The notes under the pieces were generated by a model. That model was not told the origin of the DNA. It ran no database searches and saw only the letters and a list, made by a program, of their open reading frames with translations. Made by a program: the position numbers and the translations under genes. Source: Bacteroidales bacterium (GTDB lineage: Bacteria; Bacteroidota; Bacteroidia; Bacteroidales; Marinilabiliaceae). Taken from it: a DNA stretch of 45,066 nucleotides. Shown here piece by piece: positions 9,948-17,819 of this stretch. The stretch's first letter is position 1; each line of letters starts with the position of its first letter. The stretch spans positions 1 to 45,066 of the forward strand of contig DUOK01000289.1 in the NCBI GenBank assembly GCA_012838865.1, read 5' to 3'.

Positions 9948-10016
9948 ACATCGACACCAACCCACTCAAAACAAACAACTTAAGCAACACTCCTGAAAAA
10001 AATTCAAAAACAGCGT

Positions 10017-10047
10017 TTGCATTTTAGAAAATCCTTACGTAAAATTG
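10017..10047 (+). promoter_or_regulatory. trp operon promoter
   Basis: TTG at 10017-10019 (in TTTG), a 20-bp spacer, then TAAAATTG at 10040-10047, which matches TAnnTTTG at seven of eight positions. Transcription would start about 10052-10055, some 15-20 bases before the leader peptide. The spacing is what is known for Bacteroidota sigma-ABfr promoters. Confidence 0.65.
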
Positions 10048-10070
10048 CAGAACGATTAGAAAACGAAACC

Positions 10071-10136
10071 ATGCAGACAATCATTCGCAACAACAATTGG
10101 TGGTGGCACACTTCAGTCCTCATACACGGGAGATGA
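10071..10136 (+). CDS. trpL: trp operon leader peptide
   Basis: A 21-codon frame, ATG at 10071 and TGA at 10134-10136. It reads MQTIIRNNN followed by three consecutive Trp codons (10098-10106) and then HTSVLIHGR. Tryptophan is the rarest residue, and three in a row in a short peptide between the trp promoter and a terminator are the hallmark of an attenuation leader: a ribosome stalled on these codons when charged tRNA-Trp is scarce would favour read-through into trpE. The peptide itself has no expected function after synthesis. Start and stop are unambiguous. Confidence 0.9.
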   Translation: MQTIIRNNNWWWHTSVLIHGR

Positions 10137-10217
10137 AGCGATGCCCTTATGCTCTGTTGCGAACCAGAATAACTTAAGAAGGCTTGTCGGAATCCCCGAC
10201 AAGCCTTTTTTCTTTTT
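10111..10217 (+). promoter_or_regulatory. trp attenuator (1:2 hairpin, candidate antiterminator, terminator)
   Basis: Three alternative structures can be read. The 1:2 hairpin pairs CTTCA (10111-10115) with TGAAG (10134-10138), with a further 3-bp CTC/GAG inside, directly after the Trp codons. A candidate antiterminator pairs 10143-10149 with 10175-10183 (7 bp with a two-base bulge). The terminator (10181-10217) would be blocked by that pairing. A ribosome stalled on the Trp codons would cover the first arm of 1:2 and free the following segment. The hairpins are seen by eye; their relative stabilities have not been computed. Confidence 0.72.
10181..10217 (+). terminator. trp leader intrinsic terminator
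   Basis: GGCTTGTCGG (10181-10190) pairs perfectly with CCGACAAGCC (10196-10205) around a five-base loop, followed by TTTTTTCTTTTT. It lies 30 bp before trpE and after the leader peptide, so it ends transcription inside the leader rather than after a gene. Confidence 0.92.
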
Positions 10218-10246
10218 ATGCAAAACCAACGAAAAAATAAGTACTC

Positions 10247-11662
10247 ATGCAAAACTATCCCATCAACGTACACCATCGCCGCATTCCCCCTCACATTGGA
10301 GATGTGGTTACCCCGGTAAGTCTTTACCTGACCCTGCGCGACCTCTACCCCAACACCATCCTGCTCGAAAGTTCGGATTACCACGGCAACAACAATTCCA
10401 CCTCCTTCATTTGCTTCGACCCCATGGCCGACTTTCTGGTGGAGGGAGAGCAGGTGACTTGTCGCTTTCCGGACAAGCATACGGAAACCACCCCGCTGCC
10501 AGCCAGCAAGCCGGTGACCGACTTGCTGCAGGACTTCATCGACCGCCTGCAGGTGGCCCCCAACGACTGTCCCCTTGCTGCAACAGGACTCTACGGCTAT
10601 ACCACCTACGATGCCGTTCGCTACTTTGAAAACCTTCAACTGAAACTTGACCCCGCAGCGCCCTATGCCATACCCGACATGCGCTACCATTTGTACCGCT
10701 CGGTCATTGCCTTCAACCATTTCACCAACCAGCTCTATCTGGTTGAACACCTCATCGGAGAAGAACAAAGCATTTACGATAAACTGCTGAACATCCTAAA
10801 AAACAGAACAGTACCCTCCTTCCGTTTTGCGCCGGTAAACGGCGAATCCTCCTCCCTGAGCAACGAAGATTACAAGGCTATGGTCAGAAAGGGCAAGGAA
10901 CATTGCTACCGCGGCGATGTCTTTCAGATCGTCCTCTCCCGCCAGTTTGCCCAACAGTTCAAAGGCGACGAATTCAATGTATACCGGGCCCTGCGACACA
11001 TTAACCCCTCTCCCTACCTCTTCTTCTTCGATTACGGCAACTACCGCCTCTTTGGTTCCTCACCTGAAAGTCAGTTGGTGGTGGACAAGGGTACCGCTAC
11101 CATCAACCCCATTGCCGGCACCTTTCAGCGTACGGGCGACGACCTGAAGGACCTCAAATTGGCCGAGGAACTGGCTGCCGACCCCAAGGAAAATGCCGAG
11201 CACGTTATGCTGGTCGATTTGGCACGCAACGACCTGGGACGCAACTGCAATGAAGTTAAAGTAAAGACCTACAAAGAAATTCAATACTACAGTCACGTCC
11301 TGCACATGGTCTCTGAGGTGAACGGAAAACTCAAACCCGGCTCCACCACCCCAAGGGTGATGGGCGACACCTTTCCGGCCGGCACCCTCTCCGGAGCACC
11401 CAAGTACAAGGCCATGGAACTGATCGACCGCTACGAGCCCCAGCAAAGAGGCTTTTATGGCGGCTGCATCGGCCAGCTGGGCCTCGACGGCAGCTTCAAC
11501 CAGGCCATTGCCATCCGTACCTTCCTGAGCAAAAACAACACCCTGTTCTACCAGGCCGGGGCCGGCGTGGTCTCCGAGTCGAAAGAAGAAAACGAACTGC
11601 AGGAAGTCAACAACAAACTGGGCGCCCTGAAACGCGCCATTGAACTCGCCCGTGAGTTTTAA
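10247..11662 (+). CDS. trpE: anthranilate synthase component I
   Basis: Converts chorismate and ammonia to anthranilate, the first committed step of Trp synthesis; works with TrpG. The 471-residue protein has the Trp feedback-binding motif LLESS at residues 39-43, and the chorismate-binding core with FGSSPESQLVV, PIAGTFQRTG, DLARNDLGRNC, TFPAGTLSGAPKYKAMELI and the terminal YQAGAGVVSESKEENELQE. TrpE rather than PabB or a salicylate synthase is supported by LLESS and by the trp operon. First structural gene after the attenuator; trpG starts 29 bp downstream. Confidence 0.97.
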   Translation: MQNYPINVHHRRIPPHIGDVVTPVSLYLTLRDLYPNTILLESSDYHGNNNSTSFICFDPMADFLVEGEQVTCRFPDKHTETTPLPASKPVTDLLQDFIDRLQVAPNDCPLAATGLYGYTTYDAVRYFENLQLKLDPAAPYAIPDMRYHLYRSVIAFNHFTNQLYLVEHLIGEEQSIYDKLLNILKNRTVPSFRFAPVNGESSSLSNEDYKAMVRKGKEHCYRGDVFQIVLSRQFAQQFKGDEFNVYRALRHINPSPYLFFFDYGNYRLFGSSPESQLVVDKGTATINPIAGTFQRTGDDLKDLKLAEELAADPKENAEHVMLVDLARNDLGRNCNEVKVKTYKEIQYYSHVLHMVSEVNGKLKPGSTTPRVMGDTFPAGTLSGAPKYKAMELIDRYEPQQRGFYGGCIGQLGLDGSFNQAIAIRTFLSKNNTLFYQAGAGVVSESKEENELQEVNNKLGALKRAIELAREF

Positions 11663-11691
11663 TCCATTCTCCAACTCCTAATACAAGAATC

Positions 11692-12261
11692 ATGAAAATA
11701 CTGGTGCTCGACAATTACGATTCCTTTACCTACAACCTGGTGCACTATCTCGAAGAACTCACCGACGCCCAGGTGGATGTGTACCGCAACGACGAAATCA
11801 GCGTAGAAGAAGCCGCCGCCTACGACAAAATTGTACTGTCGCCCGGCCCCGGCATCCCCGACGAAGCCGGCATTCTGAAACCACTCATCAAAGCCCTGGC
11901 GCCCACCCACAGCATCCTGGGCGTTTGTCTCGGTTGCCAGGCCATTGCCGAAGTCTTTGGCGGTCAAATCTACAACCTTTCCAAAGTGTACCACGGCATT
12001 GCCACCCCCATACGGGTGGAAGACCCGGATGAAATACTGTTCAACGGACTGCCCACAACATTTGAAGCGGGACGCTACCACAGTTGGGTGGTTGATGAAC
12101 AAAAACTGCCGGAGAGCCTTAAAATAACGGCACGCGACGAGGAGGGTCAGATTATGGGCCTGCGCCACAGCAGCTACGATGTTCGTGCCGTGCAGTTTCA
12201 TCCCGAATCGATATTGACCCAAAACGGAAAAGAGATGATTAAGAACTGGCTGCAACAATAA
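11692..12261 (+). CDS. trpG: anthranilate synthase component II (glutamine amidotransferase)
   Basis: Class I glutamine amidotransferase that supplies ammonia to TrpE. The 189-residue protein has the nucleophile Cys79 in LGVCLGCQAIAEVFGG and the His170/Glu172 pair in VQFHPESI, plus the oxyanion-loop SPGPGIP. It is a free-standing subunit, not fused to TrpD as in E. coli. TrpG proteins can also serve PabB; no pabB is nearby, and its place between trpE and trpD makes the Trp role primary. Confidence 0.96.
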   Translation: MKILVLDNYDSFTYNLVHYLEELTDAQVDVYRNDEISVEEAAAYDKIVLSPGPGIPDEAGILKPLIKALAPTHSILGVCLGCQAIAEVFGGQIYNLSKVYHGIATPIRVEDPDEILFNGLPTTFEAGRYHSWVVDEQKLPESLKITARDEEGQIMGLRHSSYDVRAVQFHPESILTQNGKEMIKNWLQQ

Positions 12262-12311
12262 GCGCTTCCAGGTCATCACTCATTCAGTATTCAGCTTAAA
12301 ACAAAAGAAAG

Positions 12312-13310
12312 ATGTTACAGCCCATATTAAAAACCCTTTTCGATTACCAAACCCTCAGTCGCCAACAAGCACGCGAAATTTTGGTAAACATTACACGCGA
12401 CAGCTACAGCAAATCTGAGGTTGTTGCCTTTTTATCGGTTTATATGATGCGCCCGGTTACCGTAGAAGAACTGTCGGGTTTCCGCGACGGTCTGTTGGAA
12501 CTTCGCCTGCCCGTGGATCTGTCGGACTTCGACACCGTAGATTTGTGCGGCACCGGGGGCGACGGAAAAAACACCTTCAACATCAGTACCCTGGCCTCTT
12601 TCATCACGGCCGGCGCCGGCATAAAAGTGGCCAAGCACGGCAACTACGGTGTAAGCTCAGGTTGCGGATCGTCCAACATGCTCGAAGCATTGGGCTACCG
12701 CTTTACCAACGACAGCGATACCCTGCGTCGTCAAATCGACCGGGCAGGCATTTGTTTTTTACATGCTCCGCTCTTCCATCCGGCCATGAAAGCGGTAGCG
12801 CCCATCCGAAAAGAATTGGGCATCAAAACCTTCTTCAACATGCTGGGCCCACTGGTCAATCCCTCCAGTCCCCAAAGCCAGTTGGCGGGGGTGTTCGACC
12901 TCGAATTGGCACGCTTGTACCAGTATTTGTTTCAGGAAGGCGACCAACGTTTCACCATCTTGCACAGCACCGATGGCTACGATGAAATTTCGCTGACCTC
13001 CCCCTTCAAGGTCATTACCCAGAATGGGGAACAACTGCTGACGGCAGCCGATCTGAAGCTGCCCGAAAACAGTCCCGAAAGCATTCAGGGAGGACACGAA
13101 GTAGCAGAAGCAGCCGGCATCTTCAACACCATACTCGATGGGAAAGGAACTGCGCAGCAGAACAACGTCGTTATTGCCAATGCGGCCTTTGCCATCCAGT
13201 GTAACCGTCCCGAGCTCAGCATCGACGAGGCCCTGGACAAGGCACGCGAATCGCTGCTCTCTGGCCGGGCCAAAGCCACGGTAAAAAAGCTCCTGGACAC
13301 CCAAAACTAA
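12312..13310 (+). CDS. trpD: anthranilate phosphoribosyltransferase
   Basis: Transfers phosphoribosyl from PRPP to anthranilate, giving N-(5'-phosphoribosyl)anthranilate. The 332-residue protein shows the PRPP-binding GTGGDGKNTFNIST and the adjacent KHGNYGVSSGCGSSNMLEALG, then FNMLGPLVNPSSPQSQLAGV and the DGYDEISLTSP segment, in the order expected for TrpD. Starts at ATG 50 bp after trpG; trpC starts 46 bp downstream. Length is usual. Confidence 0.97.
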   Translation: MLQPILKTLFDYQTLSRQQAREILVNITRDSYSKSEVVAFLSVYMMRPVTVEELSGFRDGLLELRLPVDLSDFDTVDLCGTGGDGKNTFNISTLASFITAGAGIKVAKHGNYGVSSGCGSSNMLEALGYRFTNDSDTLRRQIDRAGICFLHAPLFHPAMKAVAPIRKELGIKTFFNMLGPLVNPSSPQSQLAGVFDLELARLYQYLFQEGDQRFTILHSTDGYDEISLTSPFKVITQNGEQLLTAADLKLPENSPESIQGGHEVAEAAGIFNTILDGKGTAQQNNVVIANAAFAIQCNRPELSIDEALDKARESLLSGRAKATVKKLLDTQN

Positions 13311-13356
13311 GCGCCGACCAGGCAACAACAACGGAACCATTACAAAACCAAAGACC

Positions 13357-14169
13357 ATGAATATTCTCGATAAAATAGTAGCCCGCAAGCGTGAAGAAGT
13401 GGCTGAGGCCCAGGCCCAAACCCCACTTAAACTGCTCCAGTATTACCGGCATTACGACCAGAAGGTGCCCTCGTTTAAAGCGGCCCTGCTGGCTCAGGGC
13501 GCCACCGGCATCATTGCCGAGTTCAAACGACGTTCGCCCTCCAAAGGGGCAATTCATGCCGGGGCGCAGGTGGCCGATATTGTACCGGCCTATCAAAAAG
13601 CCGGCGCATCGGCCCTGTCGATTCTGACCGACCGCGACTTTTTTGGGGGCAGCGACGAGGACCTGGCTCAGGGACGCGACCTCAGTCAACTGCCCATCAT
13701 CCGCAAGGAATTCATCATAGACCCTTATCAGGTTTACGAAGCCAAAGCCCTGGGGGCAAGCGCCATCCTGCTTATTGGAGCGATTCTGGATAAGGGTCAG
13801 GCCAAAGAGCTGGCCGCCCTGGCCAACTCTCTGGGTATGGAAGTCCTCTTTGAAATCCACGAAGAAAAAGAACTGGAGCTGCTGAACAGTTACGTCCAGC
13901 TGGTGGGCATCAACAACCGCAACCTCAAAGATTTTAAAGTGGACCTGGAACACTCGATGCACCTGGCAGCCCAACTGCCCGGGCACCTGGTGCCGGTCGC
14001 CGAAAGCGGAATTGCCTCGGCGGCGGACTACCAAAGACTGCGTAAGGCGGGCTTTAAGGGCTTTTTGATGGGAGAGTACTTTATGAAACACCAGGATCCG
14101 GGAGCCGCCTGTGCCGACTTCTGCCAACAAATACAAACCACTGTAAGTCAGACCAACTATGCTGATTAA
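13357..14169 (+). CDS. trpC: indole-3-glycerol-phosphate synthase
   Basis: TIM-barrel enzyme that closes the indole ring, converting CdRP to indole-3-glycerol phosphate with loss of CO2 and water. The 270-residue product begins MNILDKIVARKREEVA, has the phosphate-binding and catalytic segment EFKRRSPSKGAI (catalytic Lys), IIRKEFIIDPYQVYEA, LVGINNRNLKDF and the C-terminal VAESGI with GFLMGEYFM. It is monofunctional, separate from TrpF. Its last 11 bp overlap the start of trpF, so translation is coupled. Confidence 0.97.
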   Translation: MNILDKIVARKREEVAEAQAQTPLKLLQYYRHYDQKVPSFKAALLAQGATGIIAEFKRRSPSKGAIHAGAQVADIVPAYQKAGASALSILTDRDFFGGSDEDLAQGRDLSQLPIIRKEFIIDPYQVYEAKALGASAILLIGAILDKGQAKELAALANSLGMEVLFEIHEEKELELLNSYVQLVGINNRNLKDFKVDLEHSMHLAAQLPGHLVPVAESGIASAADYQRLRKAGFKGFLMGEYFMKHQDPGAACADFCQQIQTTVSQTNYAD

Positions 14170-14797
14170 AGTCTGCGGGATGCGCCATCCCGACAACATC
14201 AAGGCGGTGGCCGGCTTGCAACCCGACTATCTGGGCTTCATCTTTTATCCGCCTTCGCCCCGCTATGTGGGCGAGCTGCTGCTGCCCGAAATGCTGGAAC
14301 AAATCCCTGCAGGCATCAAAAAAACCGGCGTCTTTGTCAACGCAGGCACCAGCGATATGCTGAATGTGGCCCGACGTTACCAGTTGGATGCCCTGCAACT
14401 GCACGGTCGGGAGAGCGCAGCACAGTGCAGGCAACTCAAAGCAGAAGGTCTGGAAATCATCAAAGCCTTTGCGGCCAGACAGGGCAGCGATTTTGCCAAT
14501 ACAAGAGACTATGAAGGAAACTGCGACTATTTTCTATTCGACACGCCCTCGCAGGCCCACGGCGGGTCGGGACAAAAATACGACTGGCACTTGCTTCAGG
14601 ACTATCGGGGTACTACCCCCTTCTTCCTGAGCGGGGGACTGGGTCCGACCGACGCAGAAGCACTACGTGCCTTCCACCATCCGCAACTGGCGGGCATCGA
14701 CCTGAACAGTCGCTTCGAAAGTGCTCCGGCACGCAAGGATGTGCCCGCCCTTCAAGCTTTTCTGAATAAGTATCGTCAAAGCAATCCACCTTTATAA
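14159..14797 (+). CDS. trpF: phosphoribosylanthranilate isomerase
   Basis: Amadori isomerase that turns phosphoribosylanthranilate into CdRP. The 212-residue TIM-barrel begins MLIKVCGMRHPDNI, where the Cys is the catalytic base, followed by LGFIFYPPSPRYV, LQLHGRES, FDTPSQAHGGSGQKYDW and FFLSGGLGP with the phosphate loop; the late GIDLNSRFESAPARKD is also typical. It overlaps trpC by 11 bp, and trpB follows 11 bp later. Confidence 0.96.
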   Translation: MLIKVCGMRHPDNIKAVAGLQPDYLGFIFYPPSPRYVGELLLPEMLEQIPAGIKKTGVFVNAGTSDMLNVARRYQLDALQLHGRESAAQCRQLKAEGLEIIKAFAARQGSDFANTRDYEGNCDYFLFDTPSQAHGGSGQKYDWHLLQDYRGTTPFFLSGGLGPTDAEALRAFHHPQLAGIDLNSRFESAPARKDVPALQAFLNKYRQSNPPL

Positions 14798-14808
14798 ATT
14801 CAACAAGC

Positions 14809-15996
14809 ATGTTTCACCCCAATGAAAAAGGTTTCTACGGTGCCTACGGAGGCGCCTACATTCCGGAAATGCTCATCCCAAATATCGAGGAGCTGCGCGG
14901 CAAATACCTGCGCATCCTGGAATCCGACAGCTTTCAAAAGACTTATCATCATTTGCTCAGTGACTACGCAGGGCGCCCCTCTCCCCTTTTTAAAGCCGAG
15001 CGCATGTCGCAACGCTACCAAACCAACATCTGGTTGAAGCGAGAGGACTTGAACCATACCGGCAGTCACAAACTCAACAACACCATTGGTCAGATTCTAC
15101 TGGCAAAGGAAATGGGCCGCCGGCGCATCATTGCTGAGACCGGTGCCGGTCAGCATGGCGTGGCCACCGCTACGGTATGTGCCCTGATGGGCCTCGAGTG
15201 CGTGGTGTATATGGGACAGACCGACATGGAGCGTCAGGCGCCGAACGTGGCCCGTATGCGCATGTTGGGAGCCGAAGTGCGCCCGGCACTTTCGGGCAAC
15301 CGCACCTTAAAGGATGCCACCAACGAGGCGCTGCGCGACTGGATTGCACATCCTACGGACACCTTCTACCTCATCGGTTCGGTGGTGGGACCGCATCCCT
15401 ACCCCGATTTGGTGGCCCGCCTGCAGGCGGTCATCAGCAGCGAAATCAAGCAACAGCTCAAGGAGAAAATTGGAACGGAGCTGCCCAACTATGTGCTGGC
15501 CTGTGTAGGGGGCGGCTCCAATGCAGCAGGCAGCTTTTACCACTTTCTGGAGCACCCTTCGGTGCAACTTATTGGCACCGAAGCAGCCGGCATGGGGGTG
15601 GAAAGTGGGGAGACTGCCGCCTCCATGGCCTGTGGCGAAAAGGGCATCATTCACGGCAGCATGACCTACCTGATGCAGGATGGGGACGGACAAATTACCG
15701 AACCCTACTCCATTTCCGCAGGCCTCGATTACCCGGGCATTGGTCCCCTCCACGCCTTTTTAAAGGACAGTCACCGCGCGACCTATTTGCCGGTGACCGA
15801 TGCAGAAGCCCTGGATGCGGCCCTGGAGCTTACCCGCCTCGAAGGCATCATCCCGGCACTGGAATCGGCCCATGCCCTGGCGGGCCTGGGCAAACTGCGC
15901 TTTAAACCGACCGACCAGGTGGTGGTTACCGTCTCCGGAAGAGGCGATAAAGACATGAAAACCTATATGGAACACTTCAAACTGACCGAAAAATGA
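14809..15996 (+). CDS. trpB: tryptophan synthase beta chain
   Basis: PLP enzyme that condenses indole with serine to make tryptophan, in an alpha2-beta2 complex with TrpA. The 395-residue protein has the PLP lysine in KREDLNHTGSHKLNN, the ETGAGQHGVATATVCAL loop with the catalytic Glu, the phosphate-binding GGGSNA, and the late TVSGRGDKDM. The N-terminal GFYGAYGGAYIPEML marks the TrpB1 type that pairs with TrpA. It ends in an ATGA overlap with trpA. Confidence 0.98.
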   Translation: MFHPNEKGFYGAYGGAYIPEMLIPNIEELRGKYLRILESDSFQKTYHHLLSDYAGRPSPLFKAERMSQRYQTNIWLKREDLNHTGSHKLNNTIGQILLAKEMGRRRIIAETGAGQHGVATATVCALMGLECVVYMGQTDMERQAPNVARMRMLGAEVRPALSGNRTLKDATNEALRDWIAHPTDTFYLIGSVVGPHPYPDLVARLQAVISSEIKQQLKEKIGTELPNYVLACVGGGSNAAGSFYHFLEHPSVQLIGTEAAGMGVESGETAASMACGEKGIIHGSMTYLMQDGDGQITEPYSISAGLDYPGIGPLHAFLKDSHRATYLPVTDAEALDAALELTRLEGIIPALESAHALAGLGKLRFKPTDQVVVTVSGRGDKDMKTYMEHFKLTEK

Positions 15997-16769
15997 CGCG
16001 ACTGCAAAAACTCTTCAGCAGCAAAAAGGACCTGCTGTCTATTTATTATACGGCCGGCTACCCACAGCTGAATGCCACCCGCGTGGTGCTGGACGCGCTG
16101 CAGGAAAGCGGGGTGGACTTTGTTGAAATTGGGATGCCCTTTTCGGACCCCCTGGCCGATGGGCCCGTTATCCAGCAAAGCGGCACCCAGGCCCTGCAAA
16201 ACGGAATGAGCCTGGAAGTCCTCCTGCAACAGTTGGCGGATATGCGCCCCGGCATCACCATGCCGGTGGTGCTCATGGGCTACCTCAACCCGGTGCTCAA
16301 ATTTGGCATGGAGCGCTTTCTGGAGCGTTGCGCCCAGGTTGGGGTTGATGGATTGATACTGCCCGACCTGCCACTGGAAAACTACCTGGAGGAATATCGG
16401 CCGCTTTTCGAGCGCTACGGCATCAGCAATATTTTCCTCATCACCCCGCAAACCCCCGAAGAACGGGTGCGCAAGCTCGATGCCCACAGCAACAGCTTCC
16501 TCTACATGGTTTCCTCTGCGGCGGTAACCGGGGCTAAGAAGGGACTCAGCGACTTTCAGCTGGATTATTTTCGACGCATTAAGGCCATGCAATTGCAGCA
16601 TCCGGCGGTAGTGGGCTTTGGCATCAGCGATAACGAAAGCTACAAAACGGTTTGCCAATACGCACAGGGCGCCATCATTGGCAGTGCCTTTGTGAAATTA
16701 CTGGAACAGGCAAAGGACCTCAAAGGGGAGATTCAACGCTTCATTTCCGAGGTGAAAAACGGGAAATAG
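15993..16769 (+). CDS. trpA: tryptophan synthase alpha chain
   Basis: Cleaves indole-3-glycerol phosphate to indole and glyceraldehyde 3-phosphate; indole is channelled to TrpB. The 258-residue TIM barrel shows the catalytic Glu in FVEIGMPFSDPLADGPVIQ and the catalytic Asp in DGLILPDLPLE, then FLYMVSSAAVTGAKKG and the phosphate-binding GFGISDN and GAIIGSAFVK. Its ATG overlaps the trpB stop as ATGA. It is the last gene of the operon; no clear terminator follows before the next promoter at 16798. Confidence 0.97.
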   Translation: MTRLQKLFSSKKDLLSIYYTAGYPQLNATRVVLDALQESGVDFVEIGMPFSDPLADGPVIQQSGTQALQNGMSLEVLLQQLADMRPGITMPVVLMGYLNPVLKFGMERFLERCAQVGVDGLILPDLPLENYLEEYRPLFERYGISNIFLITPQTPEERVRKLDAHSNSFLYMVSSAAVTGAKKGLSDFQLDYFRRIKAMQLQHPAVVGFGISDNESYKTVCQYAQGAIIGSAFVKLLEQAKDLKGEIQRFISEVKNGK

Positions 16770-16828: not shown

Positions 16829-16898
16829 CATGACCAACACCTTAACACGCGGCAGTCCACCATGGGCTGACCGCATTTTTCTTTCACAAACCAACCGC

Positions 16899-17819
16899 AT
16901 GAGTCCCTATAAAAGCAAGTCAAACGACAGCAAACTGTTGCGCATAGGCGTTTTTTACGACGGCAATTACTTTTACCACGTCAGCAACTATTACAACTAT
17001 GTGCATGAGCGGCAGTCGCGCATCAGCATCAGCGGTCTGCACAATTTCATTCGCGAGCAGGCCTCCCTGCTCGAGTCGGTCAGCGGAACCAACCGCTGCC
17101 AGATTGTGGATGCCCATTATTTCAGGGGGCGACTCAATGCCATGGAAGCCAGTCAGAAAGGCAACCAGTTGTACTACGAAAGGGTGTTCGACGACATTCT
17201 GATGTCGGAGGGCGTGACCACCCACTACTTTCCCATTAAAACCACAAATGGCTACCGCCAGGAAAGGGAAGTGGACCTGTGGTTGGCGATGGAGGCTTTT
17301 GAACTGGCGCTGTACAAACAGTTCGACATTTTGGTGCTCATTGCCAGCGACGGCAGCTACGTGCCCCTGGTGCGTAAGCTCAACACCCTGGGCACACGGG
17401 TGATGTTGTTGTCGTGGGATTTTGACTTTCGCGACGACTACGGCAACCACAAGGTAACCCGCACCTCGCAGGATTTGCTGGATGTGGTGAGTTACCCCAT
17501 ACCCATGCATATCCTCATCAACAGTCAGCAACCGCGCGACCGCCAAATCACCGAAGATCTATTTGTATCCAAAGATACTTCGGCCGACGCACGCAAAAAG
17601 TTGCACACCCCAACTGAGGACAGCCACATCAGCACCATCTTATCCATCAAATCGGGCTACGGCTTCATCAAGTACCCGCCCACCAACCTGTTTTTTCATT
17701 TCCAAAGTGTCAACGGCTGCGACTTTAACGATTTGGAACCGGGCGACCAGGTCGCCTTTCGCATTGCCCGCAATGAAAAAGGAGAAGATGTAGCCATTGA
17801 CGTGGAACTGGCCGAATAA
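16899..17819 (+). CDS. NYN domain nuclease-like protein with C-terminal cold-shock domain
   Basis: Predicted cytoplasmic RNA-acting protein of 306 residues. The N-terminal two thirds form a NYN (PIN-like) domain: IGVFYDGNYFYHV with the first metal-binding Asp21, the EREVDLWLAMEAFE block, and the FDILVLIASDGSYVPLVRKL block with further acidic residues. Residues about 244-306 look like a cold-shock/S1-like OB fold with RNP1 GYGFIKY and RNP2 LFFHF. NYN proteins are known or predicted ribonucleases; the OB fold would bind RNA. I chose the ATG at 16899; the frame extends to 16830, but that part overlaps the transcription start. It is an independent unit after the trp operon. Substrate is unknown. 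Confidence 0.82.
   Translation: MSPYKSKSNDSKLLRIGVFYDGNYFYHVSNYYNYVHERQSRISISGLHNFIREQASLLESVSGTNRCQIVDAHYFRGRLNAMEASQKGNQLYYERVFDDILMSEGVTTHYFPIKTTNGYRQEREVDLWLAMEAFELALYKQFDILVLIASDGSYVPLVRKLNTLGTRVMLLSWDFDFRDDYGNHKVTRTSQDLLDVVSYPIPMHILINSQQPRDRQITEDLFVSKDTSADARKKLHTPTEDSHISTILSIKSGYGFIKYPPTNLFFHFQSVNGCDFNDLEPGDQVAFRIARNEKGEDVAIDVELAE

Follow-up and report, generated by a model that had tools for sequence, protein, structure and literature searches.

The stretch of DNA analysed here, called the window below, comprises 45,066 nucleotides (nt) of a Bacteroidales bacterium from the family Marinilabiliaceae (contig DUOK01000289.1) and carries tryptophan (Trp) biosynthesis genes behind a candidate transcription attenuator. 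According to NCBIfam profiles the gene order is nadC, trpE, trpG, trpD, trpC, trpF, trpB, trpA; the curated cut-off is passed by nadC, the trpG/pabA subfamily, trpD, trpC, trpB and trpA, while trpE and trpF have their own family as best NCBIfam match, yet stay under it. Between nadC and trpE lies an open reading frame (ORF) of 21 codons on the + strand, which encodes MQTIIRNNNWWWHTSVLIHGR, holds the run UGG UGG UGG and ends in a UGA stop (10134-10136) that adjoins the segment termed region 2. An intrinsic terminator stands between this leader and the first gene of the operon, its hairpin (10176-10210) consisting of 15 pairs, seven of them G-C, and a 5-nt loop, with a T-rich tail behind it. The original prediction, made from the letters of the window alone, had proposed such a trp attenuator with a 21-codon Trp-Trp-Trp leader, and both the leader and the 10-bp terminator helix are there, the latter being the GGCUUGUCGG/CCGACAAGCC core of the longer stem (Table 1).

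Folded alone, the leader adopts a minimum free energy (MFE) structure in which an outer helix of 9 bp encloses a hairpin 1:2 and the terminator follows. The hairpin that had been predicted at the Trp codons corresponds to this pairing of regions 1 and 2, which also covaries among relatives (see below). As to the predicted promoter, a -7-like element, TAAAATTGC, precedes the leader AUG by 31 nt, and in 37 of 86 leaders the 70 nt before the AUG contain TANNNTTGC/TANNTTTGC, compared with a base-shuffled mean of 1.24 and maximum of 6. The simple promoter scan taken alone does not add to this. TTTG with the -7-like sequence is a putative Bacteroidota promoter.

Table 1. Features of the candidate trp attenuator and its operon in the window.
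Feature	Position	Strand	Basis and parts
Promoter-like sequence	10016-10048	+	TTTG 10016-10019; TAAAATTGC 10040-10048
Leader peptide ORF, MQTIIRNNNWWWHTSVLIHGR	10071-10136	+	ORF; Trp leader in 45/45 examinable loci
Putative sensor, three consecutive Trp codons	10098-10106	+	Sequence, alignments
Outer helix, 10084-10092 (UUCGCAACA) with 10155-10163 (UGUUGCGAA)	10084-10163	+	MFE, covariation; encloses hairpin 1:2
Hairpin 1:2, region 1 (10100-10120) with region 2 (10128-10150)	10100-10150	+	MFE, covariation
Region 1, Trp codons and what follows them	10100-10120	+	Part of hairpin 1:2
Region 2, predicted antiterminator strand	10127-10149	+	CGGG 10127-10130, GAU 10132-10134, CGAUGCCCUUA 10139-10149; stalled-ribosome nascent fold
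Region 3	10175-10198	+	UAAG 10175-10178, GGC 10181-10183, GUCG 10186-10189, AUC 10192-10194, CCCG 10195-10198 (AUC and CCCG: terminator loop and top of 3' arm)
Intrinsic terminator	10176-10217	+	5' arm 10176-10190, loop 10191-10195, 3' arm 10196-10210, T-rich tail to 10217
Putatively controlled operon trpE-trpG-trpD-trpC-trpF-trpB-trpA	10247-16769	+	NCBIfam, ORFs; presumably a single transcript

Simple terminator and promoter scans return one match each, against 0.7 and 1.0 expected in shuffles; since this is near chance, it is conservation that carries weight. Of 61 genomes searched, 46 supplied trpE and its upstream DNA for the near set, namely the own genome and 45 matching relatives. One locus with only 44 nt upstream (L023) was left out, which leaves 45 examinable loci, own included; two paralogues (L002, L003) were also left out, and two near-duplicates (L004, L015) from the analysis of 92 leaders onward. 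An ATG-started frame with two (WW) or three (WWW) consecutive Trp codons lies at most 500 nt upstream in 38 of the 45 loci (33 WWW, 5 WW; an additional WW match of L036, situated within the upstream gene, is excluded), and shuffled upstream regions yield such frames by chance in 1/4500 (WWW) and 74/4500 (WW) cases. One leader (L007) was found farther upstream than the 500-nt search range, beyond a putative insertion, another (L019) reads WHW, and in five loci (L037, L043, L044, L036 and L046, the last two as L076 and L077) the leader lies ahead of a gene with TrpB motifs that precedes trpE. Leader and terminator were found in all 45 examinable trp operons, the own one and 44 from relatives.

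The class-wide set started from 217 genomes, 68 of which have trpE at the chosen E-value, own included. Besides the own locus 65 of 68 places were examined, three being omitted at contig edges (G220, G113, G065); two of the 65 come from one genome (G071). A WW or WWW leader with terminator is present in 50 of the 65, some possibly by chance as frames were accepted to 1500 nt upstream, and W-x-W leaders (WRW, WLW, WCW) with a terminator before trpE add eight (L086, L091, L093, L099, L101, L105, L118, L121), giving 58/65; one of the seven loci lacking a leader had just 151 nt of upstream sequence. In Parabacteroides distasonis and Bacteroides finegoldii the leader stands before the annotated trpB, and it was likewise found in Phocaeicola massiliensis, whose record is unannotated. 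The element sits at the head of the operon, trpB-led operons included, as would be expected of a control element.

Leader, terminator, their conservation and operon-head position, three covarying helices and a competition of hairpin 1:2 with a pairing of regions 2 and 3 (2:3) over shared bases are what the sequences themselves display, and on this basis ribosome-mediated attenuation as such very probably controls the trp operon. The argument rests on the 45/45 leaders, the operon-head position and the covarying helices, and on the known alternative regulators: neither TrpR nor TRAP (mtrB) was found in the own genome, which is 97% complete, and the TRAP of Bacillus subtilis was detected as a positive control. 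TRAP and T-box elements control trp genes in Firmicutes, also by transcription attenuation; in the window no Rfam family reaches its cut-off, T-box included. The predicted ribosome-mediated mechanism and its distinctness from TRAP and T-box control are both supported, as is the proposal that Trp codons and pairing would be conserved across related genomes.

The antiterminator is where leaders of the class seem to depart from the E. coli scheme. In the alignment of near relatives the sequence that follows the Trp codons has its complement in the terminator loop, e.g., CGGGAG/CUCCCG, CGGGGU/ACCCCG, CCGUGAG/CUCACGG and UGCUGUGUUAAGC/GCUUAACACAGCA. This pattern was first spotted by eye, and the near set is accordingly the discovery set. 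We define the apex as the terminator loop plus 3 nt before and 4 nt after it, count positions from the last Trp codon (W), and take as lower 5' arm, in the near and class-wide sets, the 5' arm minus its top 3 nt. Because MAFFT alignments fail to match region 2 and loop between groups, neither column pair counting nor a covariance model was used; the score is instead the best contiguous helix between region 2 and apex, each leader with its own partner versus partners swapped between species.

In the near set (44 leaders) the apex scores 16.41 versus 12.07 when permuted, the best of 5000 permutations being 13.55. The independent class-wide set of 50, tested with the near-set definitions, gives 14.65 versus 11.48 ± 0.36 (0/5000), and a fixed window from W+15 to W+32, picked after both runs, gives 15.02 versus 10.35 ± 0.27 over 92 leaders (0/5000). 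The permutation counts kin leaders as separate, which is answered in part by null controls and by five random draws of a single leader from each of 34 families (15.15-15.63 versus 10.7-11.0, 0/2000 each). A third set of 13, made up of the eight W-x-W leaders, two trpB-led leaders and the three named species, scores 12.96 versus 10.72 ± 0.69 (6/5000). Sliding a 17-nt window (1000 permutations each) places the peak at W+10 to W+20, with no excess from W+25; at W+40 and W+45 the permuted scores exceed the own ones (1000/1000). Measured from the Trp codons, the best apex contact begins at 15-23 nt in 44/44 near leaders and, over all sets, at 11-23 nt in 61 of the 64 leaders with good scores. Two further helices covary over the 92 leaders, namely region 1 with region 2 (12.54 versus 10.96 ± 0.23, 0/5000; near set alone 8/5000) and the outer helix (13.99 versus 11.71 ± 0.24, 0/5000), and the negative control, region 1 with the apex, has no signal (1346/5000). 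As a covarying partner the 5' arm is unsupported: its lower part gives no signal in the near set (10.78 versus 11.16, 4724/5000) or in the fixed window over 92 leaders (4045/5000), and class-wide it has a slight excess with the whole of region 2 (10.41 versus 9.90, 126/5000). The lower 3' arm has no signal class-wide (1441/5000). An exclusive antiterminator with covariation is thus found class-wide.

Folding of nascent transcripts that end just past the apex is in line with a switch set by the ribosome. The 2:3 pairing is in the best structure of 72/92 leaders when a stalled ribosome masks the RNA to W+9, compared with 23/92 without a ribosome and 5/92 with a ribosome at the stop codon. In the stalled-ribosome fold the antiterminator of the window reads CGGG-a-GAU-gaag-CGAUGCCCUUA against UAAG-aa-GGC-uu-GUCG-ga-AUC-CCCG; the placement of the predicted antiterminator is accordingly best corrected to 10127-10149 with 10175-10198, which extends it into the loop and the upper 3' arm of the terminator. 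In 47 of the 64 leaders whose contact score is at least 14, the distance between the stop codon and the end of region 2's paired segment is from -6 to +10 nt, so that a terminating ribosome would cover region 2.

The ribosome positions, polymerase kinetics and response to Trp that we infer would run as follows. With plentiful charged tRNA-Trp, the ribosome would reach the leader stop and cover region 2, the terminator would form and transcription would stop. With scarce Trp, the ribosome would wait on the three UGG codons, mask region 1 and free region 2, which would then pair with the terminator as it emerges from RNA polymerase, its inner part binding the 5' arm and its outer part, the one that covaries, binding the loop together with the upper 3' arm. 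The apex being the point of hairpin nucleation, holding it would block nucleation and delay zipping, a kinetic step that would allow trpEGDCFBA to be transcribed. If the leader were not translated at all, the outer helix and hairpin 1:2 would retain region 2 and the terminator would win.

A known relative of this element is the Rfam family RF01692 (Bacteroid-trp), which matches the window with 34.5 bits (E 0.025 over 401 bases) in a full-length alignment. Model positions 1-131 align to 10051-10188 such that the leader AUG, the Trp codons, the stem and the 5' arm of the terminator all fall in register. The likeness extends to context, as the family lies upstream of Trp biosynthesis genes in Bacteroidota, which is where the window element is found, and to stems in its structure line that match the outer helix and hairpin 1:2. 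The model differs in that it stops within the 5' arm of the terminator, its final bases (AAGGCUUGUC) being unpaired according to the structure line, and consequently holds neither the apex nor a 2:3 contact. The gathering cut-off of 49 is reached by one of 20 loci scanned, own included (L008, 49.7 bits). FsrA, which appears in the same low-threshold scan with 24.8 bits, was rejected, being far under its cut-off of 80 with an alignment mainly to the terminator hairpin. Scanning the own genome for TGGTGGTGG...TGA was uninformative (191 matches versus 93 for the reversed pattern).

Our main reading, a ribosome-mediated trp attenuator that is a divergent relative of RF01692 and includes the apex contact, receives a probability of roughly 0.6 from these sequence comparisons. 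Several observations count against it. The contact in the window itself is 4 bp long, CGGG 10127-10130 with CCCG 10195-10198, at a shuffle p of 0.415, which is why the apex claim rests on the relatives. Even there single-leader shuffles reach p ≤ 0.05 in just 26/44 (near) and 23/50 (class-wide) cases; in the third set this level is attained by both trpB-led leaders, P. distasonis and P. massiliensis, by 2/8 W-x-W leaders, and not by B. finegoldii (p 0.777). In the class-wide set, three leaders of one family (L085, L102, L104) score the 5' arm above the apex. Near relatives hardly differ in the 5' arm, which means that the permutation cannot exclude 5'-arm pairing among them, and region 2 contacts both the apex and the lower 5' arm in 78/92 nascent folds. 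The fold counts also depend on the covariation test: the contact that was counted had been preselected for matching the apex best, which leaves the contrast between ribosome positions as the only informative part. Moreover, 2:3 is left in 30/92 folds when the transcript is 6 nt longer, in 7/92 at 8 nt more and in 2/92 at full length; the finished terminator wins at equilibrium, and the model therefore needs kinetic trapping. E. coli-type leaders also favour the terminator at full length (65/69), and the idea that they lose their antiterminator faster was rejected, given that the transcript ends of the fold sets differ by up to 4 nt. Finally, the 34.5 bits lie under the RF01692 cut-off, for which reason we speak of a divergent relative and not of a member, and FsrA has the lower E-value of the two families (0.0049 versus 0.025).

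The leading alternative is a classical attenuator of the E. coli type, in which only the pairing of region 2 with the 5' arm would be at work and the complementarity to the apex would be an extension that plays no role of its own. E. coli trpL (L145, NC_000913) resembles the window in the adjacent Trp codons of its leader peptide, in a terminator before trpE and in the alternative structures 1:2, 2:3 and 3:4 of the textbook scheme. In the window the 5' arm does engage in GCC/GGC and CUUA/UAAG contacts, an arm that hardly varies in near relatives cannot display covariation, and besides the 78/92 folds with both contacts there are 9/92 in which the 5' arm is the sole contact; the slight class-wide 5'-arm excess with the whole of region 2 points the same way. 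Against this stands the apex pairing, which covaries class-wide and peaks at a single distance from the Trp codons, whereas in the fixed window the class-wide lower 5' arm is without signal (9.21 versus 8.90, 622/5000). The Enterobacteriaceae, whose region 2 (CGGGC) finds its partner in the 5' arm of the terminator (GCCCG), look different; on the proteobacterial side the comparison covers trp leaders of this one family. Their 81 trp leader loci, less seven unusable ones and with duplicates collapsed, leave 59 distinct leaders for the arm and apex p test, 69 for the folds and 61 for the best-partner comparison, the keys differing. At p ≤ 0.05 the 5' arm (here the whole arm) is found in 14/59 and the apex in 2/59. 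Under one rule for both groups, the best partner of region 2 touches the loop in 75/92 Bacteroidia leaders (5' arm only in 11, 3' arm only in 6) versus 10/61 in Enterobacteriaceae (5' arm only in 51), at a median distance from the loop centre of +1.5 nt and -6.5 nt, respectively. An antiterminator confined to the 5' arm is hence not what is seen class-wide, and we regard the purely classical scheme as unlikely, albeit the strongest competitor. An attenuator of the window type would work like that of E. coli but with another contact, and E. coli has a TrpR in addition, the repressor that was not found here. A 13-nt segment of the window (10102-10114, GGTGGCACACTTC) differs in one base from the E. 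coli K-12 trp leader (GGTGGCGCACTTC); few aligned relatives share it, and this likeness is probably coincidence, not homology.

A second alternative holds that region 2 and the apex form a pseudoknot on the finished terminator, which would aid termination, RNA stability or polymerase pausing in place of antitermination. The lower terminator stem and the apex contact seem to have few bases in common, as such a structure would need, but region 2 covaries as well with region 1, the sequence around the Trp codons, and the stop codon lies close to the paired end of region 2 in the 47/64 good-scoring leaders mentioned above. Both fit a strand that needs to be free when a ribosome stalls, and the pseudoknot appears improbable. 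The remaining idea, a constitutive nadC terminator next to a chance Trp-rich ORF without any regulation, has in its favour that terminators between genes are commonplace and can be dismissed in view of Trp leaders at 45/45 and 58/65 loci, a WWW frame in 1/4500 shuffles and an element that precedes trpB where the gene order differs.

One feature of region 2 itself (10128-10143 in the window) deserves mention: in several relatives, L010 among them, it carries GGAGGUGA and then a nearby AUG (GGAGGUGAAGCGAUG), reminiscent of a ribosome-binding site plus start codon, and a second small ORF may start there. As the motif varies with the terminator loop, pairing explains region 2 better than a second ORF.

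The attenuator is real and its kind already known, RF01692 having been listed in 2010. The Bacteroid-trp motif stands in Table 1 of that report, whose main text is without the terms "leader peptide" and "tryptophan" (Weinberg et al., 2010; PMC2864571). Passages of two further papers concern Flavobacterium psychrophilum, where Bacteroid-Trp is noted before the trp operon and likened to the E. coli leader (PMC6414381), and where leader-peptide attenuation is inferred before amino-acid operons, with structured pheA and hisG elements (PMC9723704). These attenuators resemble ours in belonging to Bacteroidota and in having leader peptides, and differ in that the passages give no antiterminator geometry. 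Excerpts of other papers mention leader-like small ORFs in B. thetaiotaomicron (PMC7366714), treat leader genes in general (PMC4833913) or are without the word "Bacteroid" (PMC2965389). Among the matches listed, titles and abstract openings describe neither a terminator-loop contact nor trp attenuation in Bacteroidota, a coverage outside which supplements and most subscription papers lie, and the apex contact may have been described elsewhere in the literature. It is this class-wide contact, strong by covariation, that may be new.

His-run leaders offer a second system. A His-run leader with terminator lies upstream of hisG in 25 of 41 class loci, and the apex pairing there scores 12.16 versus 10.95 ± 0.42 (24/5000), with p ≤ 0.05 in 4/25, near-duplicates among them; a shared apex geometry is suggested, and only weakly so. 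Altogether, we lean towards a design proper to Bacteroidia, in which the antiterminator would seize the terminator apex and block nucleation instead of holding the 5' arm only, class-wide for trp and possibly for his too. One of the 25 His-run leaders upstream of hisG belongs to the own genome (L248, G000:C90, MLFIHHSNAHHHLLV).

Some single loci stand out. Upstream of trpE, between 325 and 52 nt from it, one relative (L034/L078, G042:C131) has a tandem pair of Trp attenuators; neither shares its WWW leader (MNTNRLNNYWWWQFTYSFYREEGKLS, MNNSNLHIWWWHNSGIKP) or its terminator with the other. In two loci of one genus (L007 and L009; G028, G010) about 280 to 470 nt, possibly an insertion, separate the attenuator terminator from trpE, a distance that in most relatives measures a few tens of nt. 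The trpE product encoded in a record labelled Chryseobacterium sp. 18061 (L218) shares 85% identity with E. coli TrpE, and a WW leader accompanies the gene; the record is probably contamination or wrongly labelled. The TrpE of the window itself compares at 52-54% with three Bacteroidales and at about 37% with the other five of the best eight plasmid records listed. Directly after trpA, an ORF on the + strand (16830-17819) has no NCBIfam match at 1e-10; by eye, it looks like a possible NYN-type nuclease joined to a cold-shock-like domain.

Ribosome-mediated attenuation is a textbook case of coupled transcription and translation that has been studied mainly in Proteobacteria, and to our knowledge there is little work on ribosome-polymerase coupling in Bacteroidota. 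A Trp leader with terminator nevertheless precedes the trp operon in most sampled class members with TrpE (58/65 loci). If the apex contact is true, induction would be lost on altering the loop alone and regained with a compensating alteration of region 2. The apex geometry also offers a route to leaders missed by the Rfam cut-off, and an attenuator of this kind would imply a tight coupling of ribosome and polymerase in the phylum.

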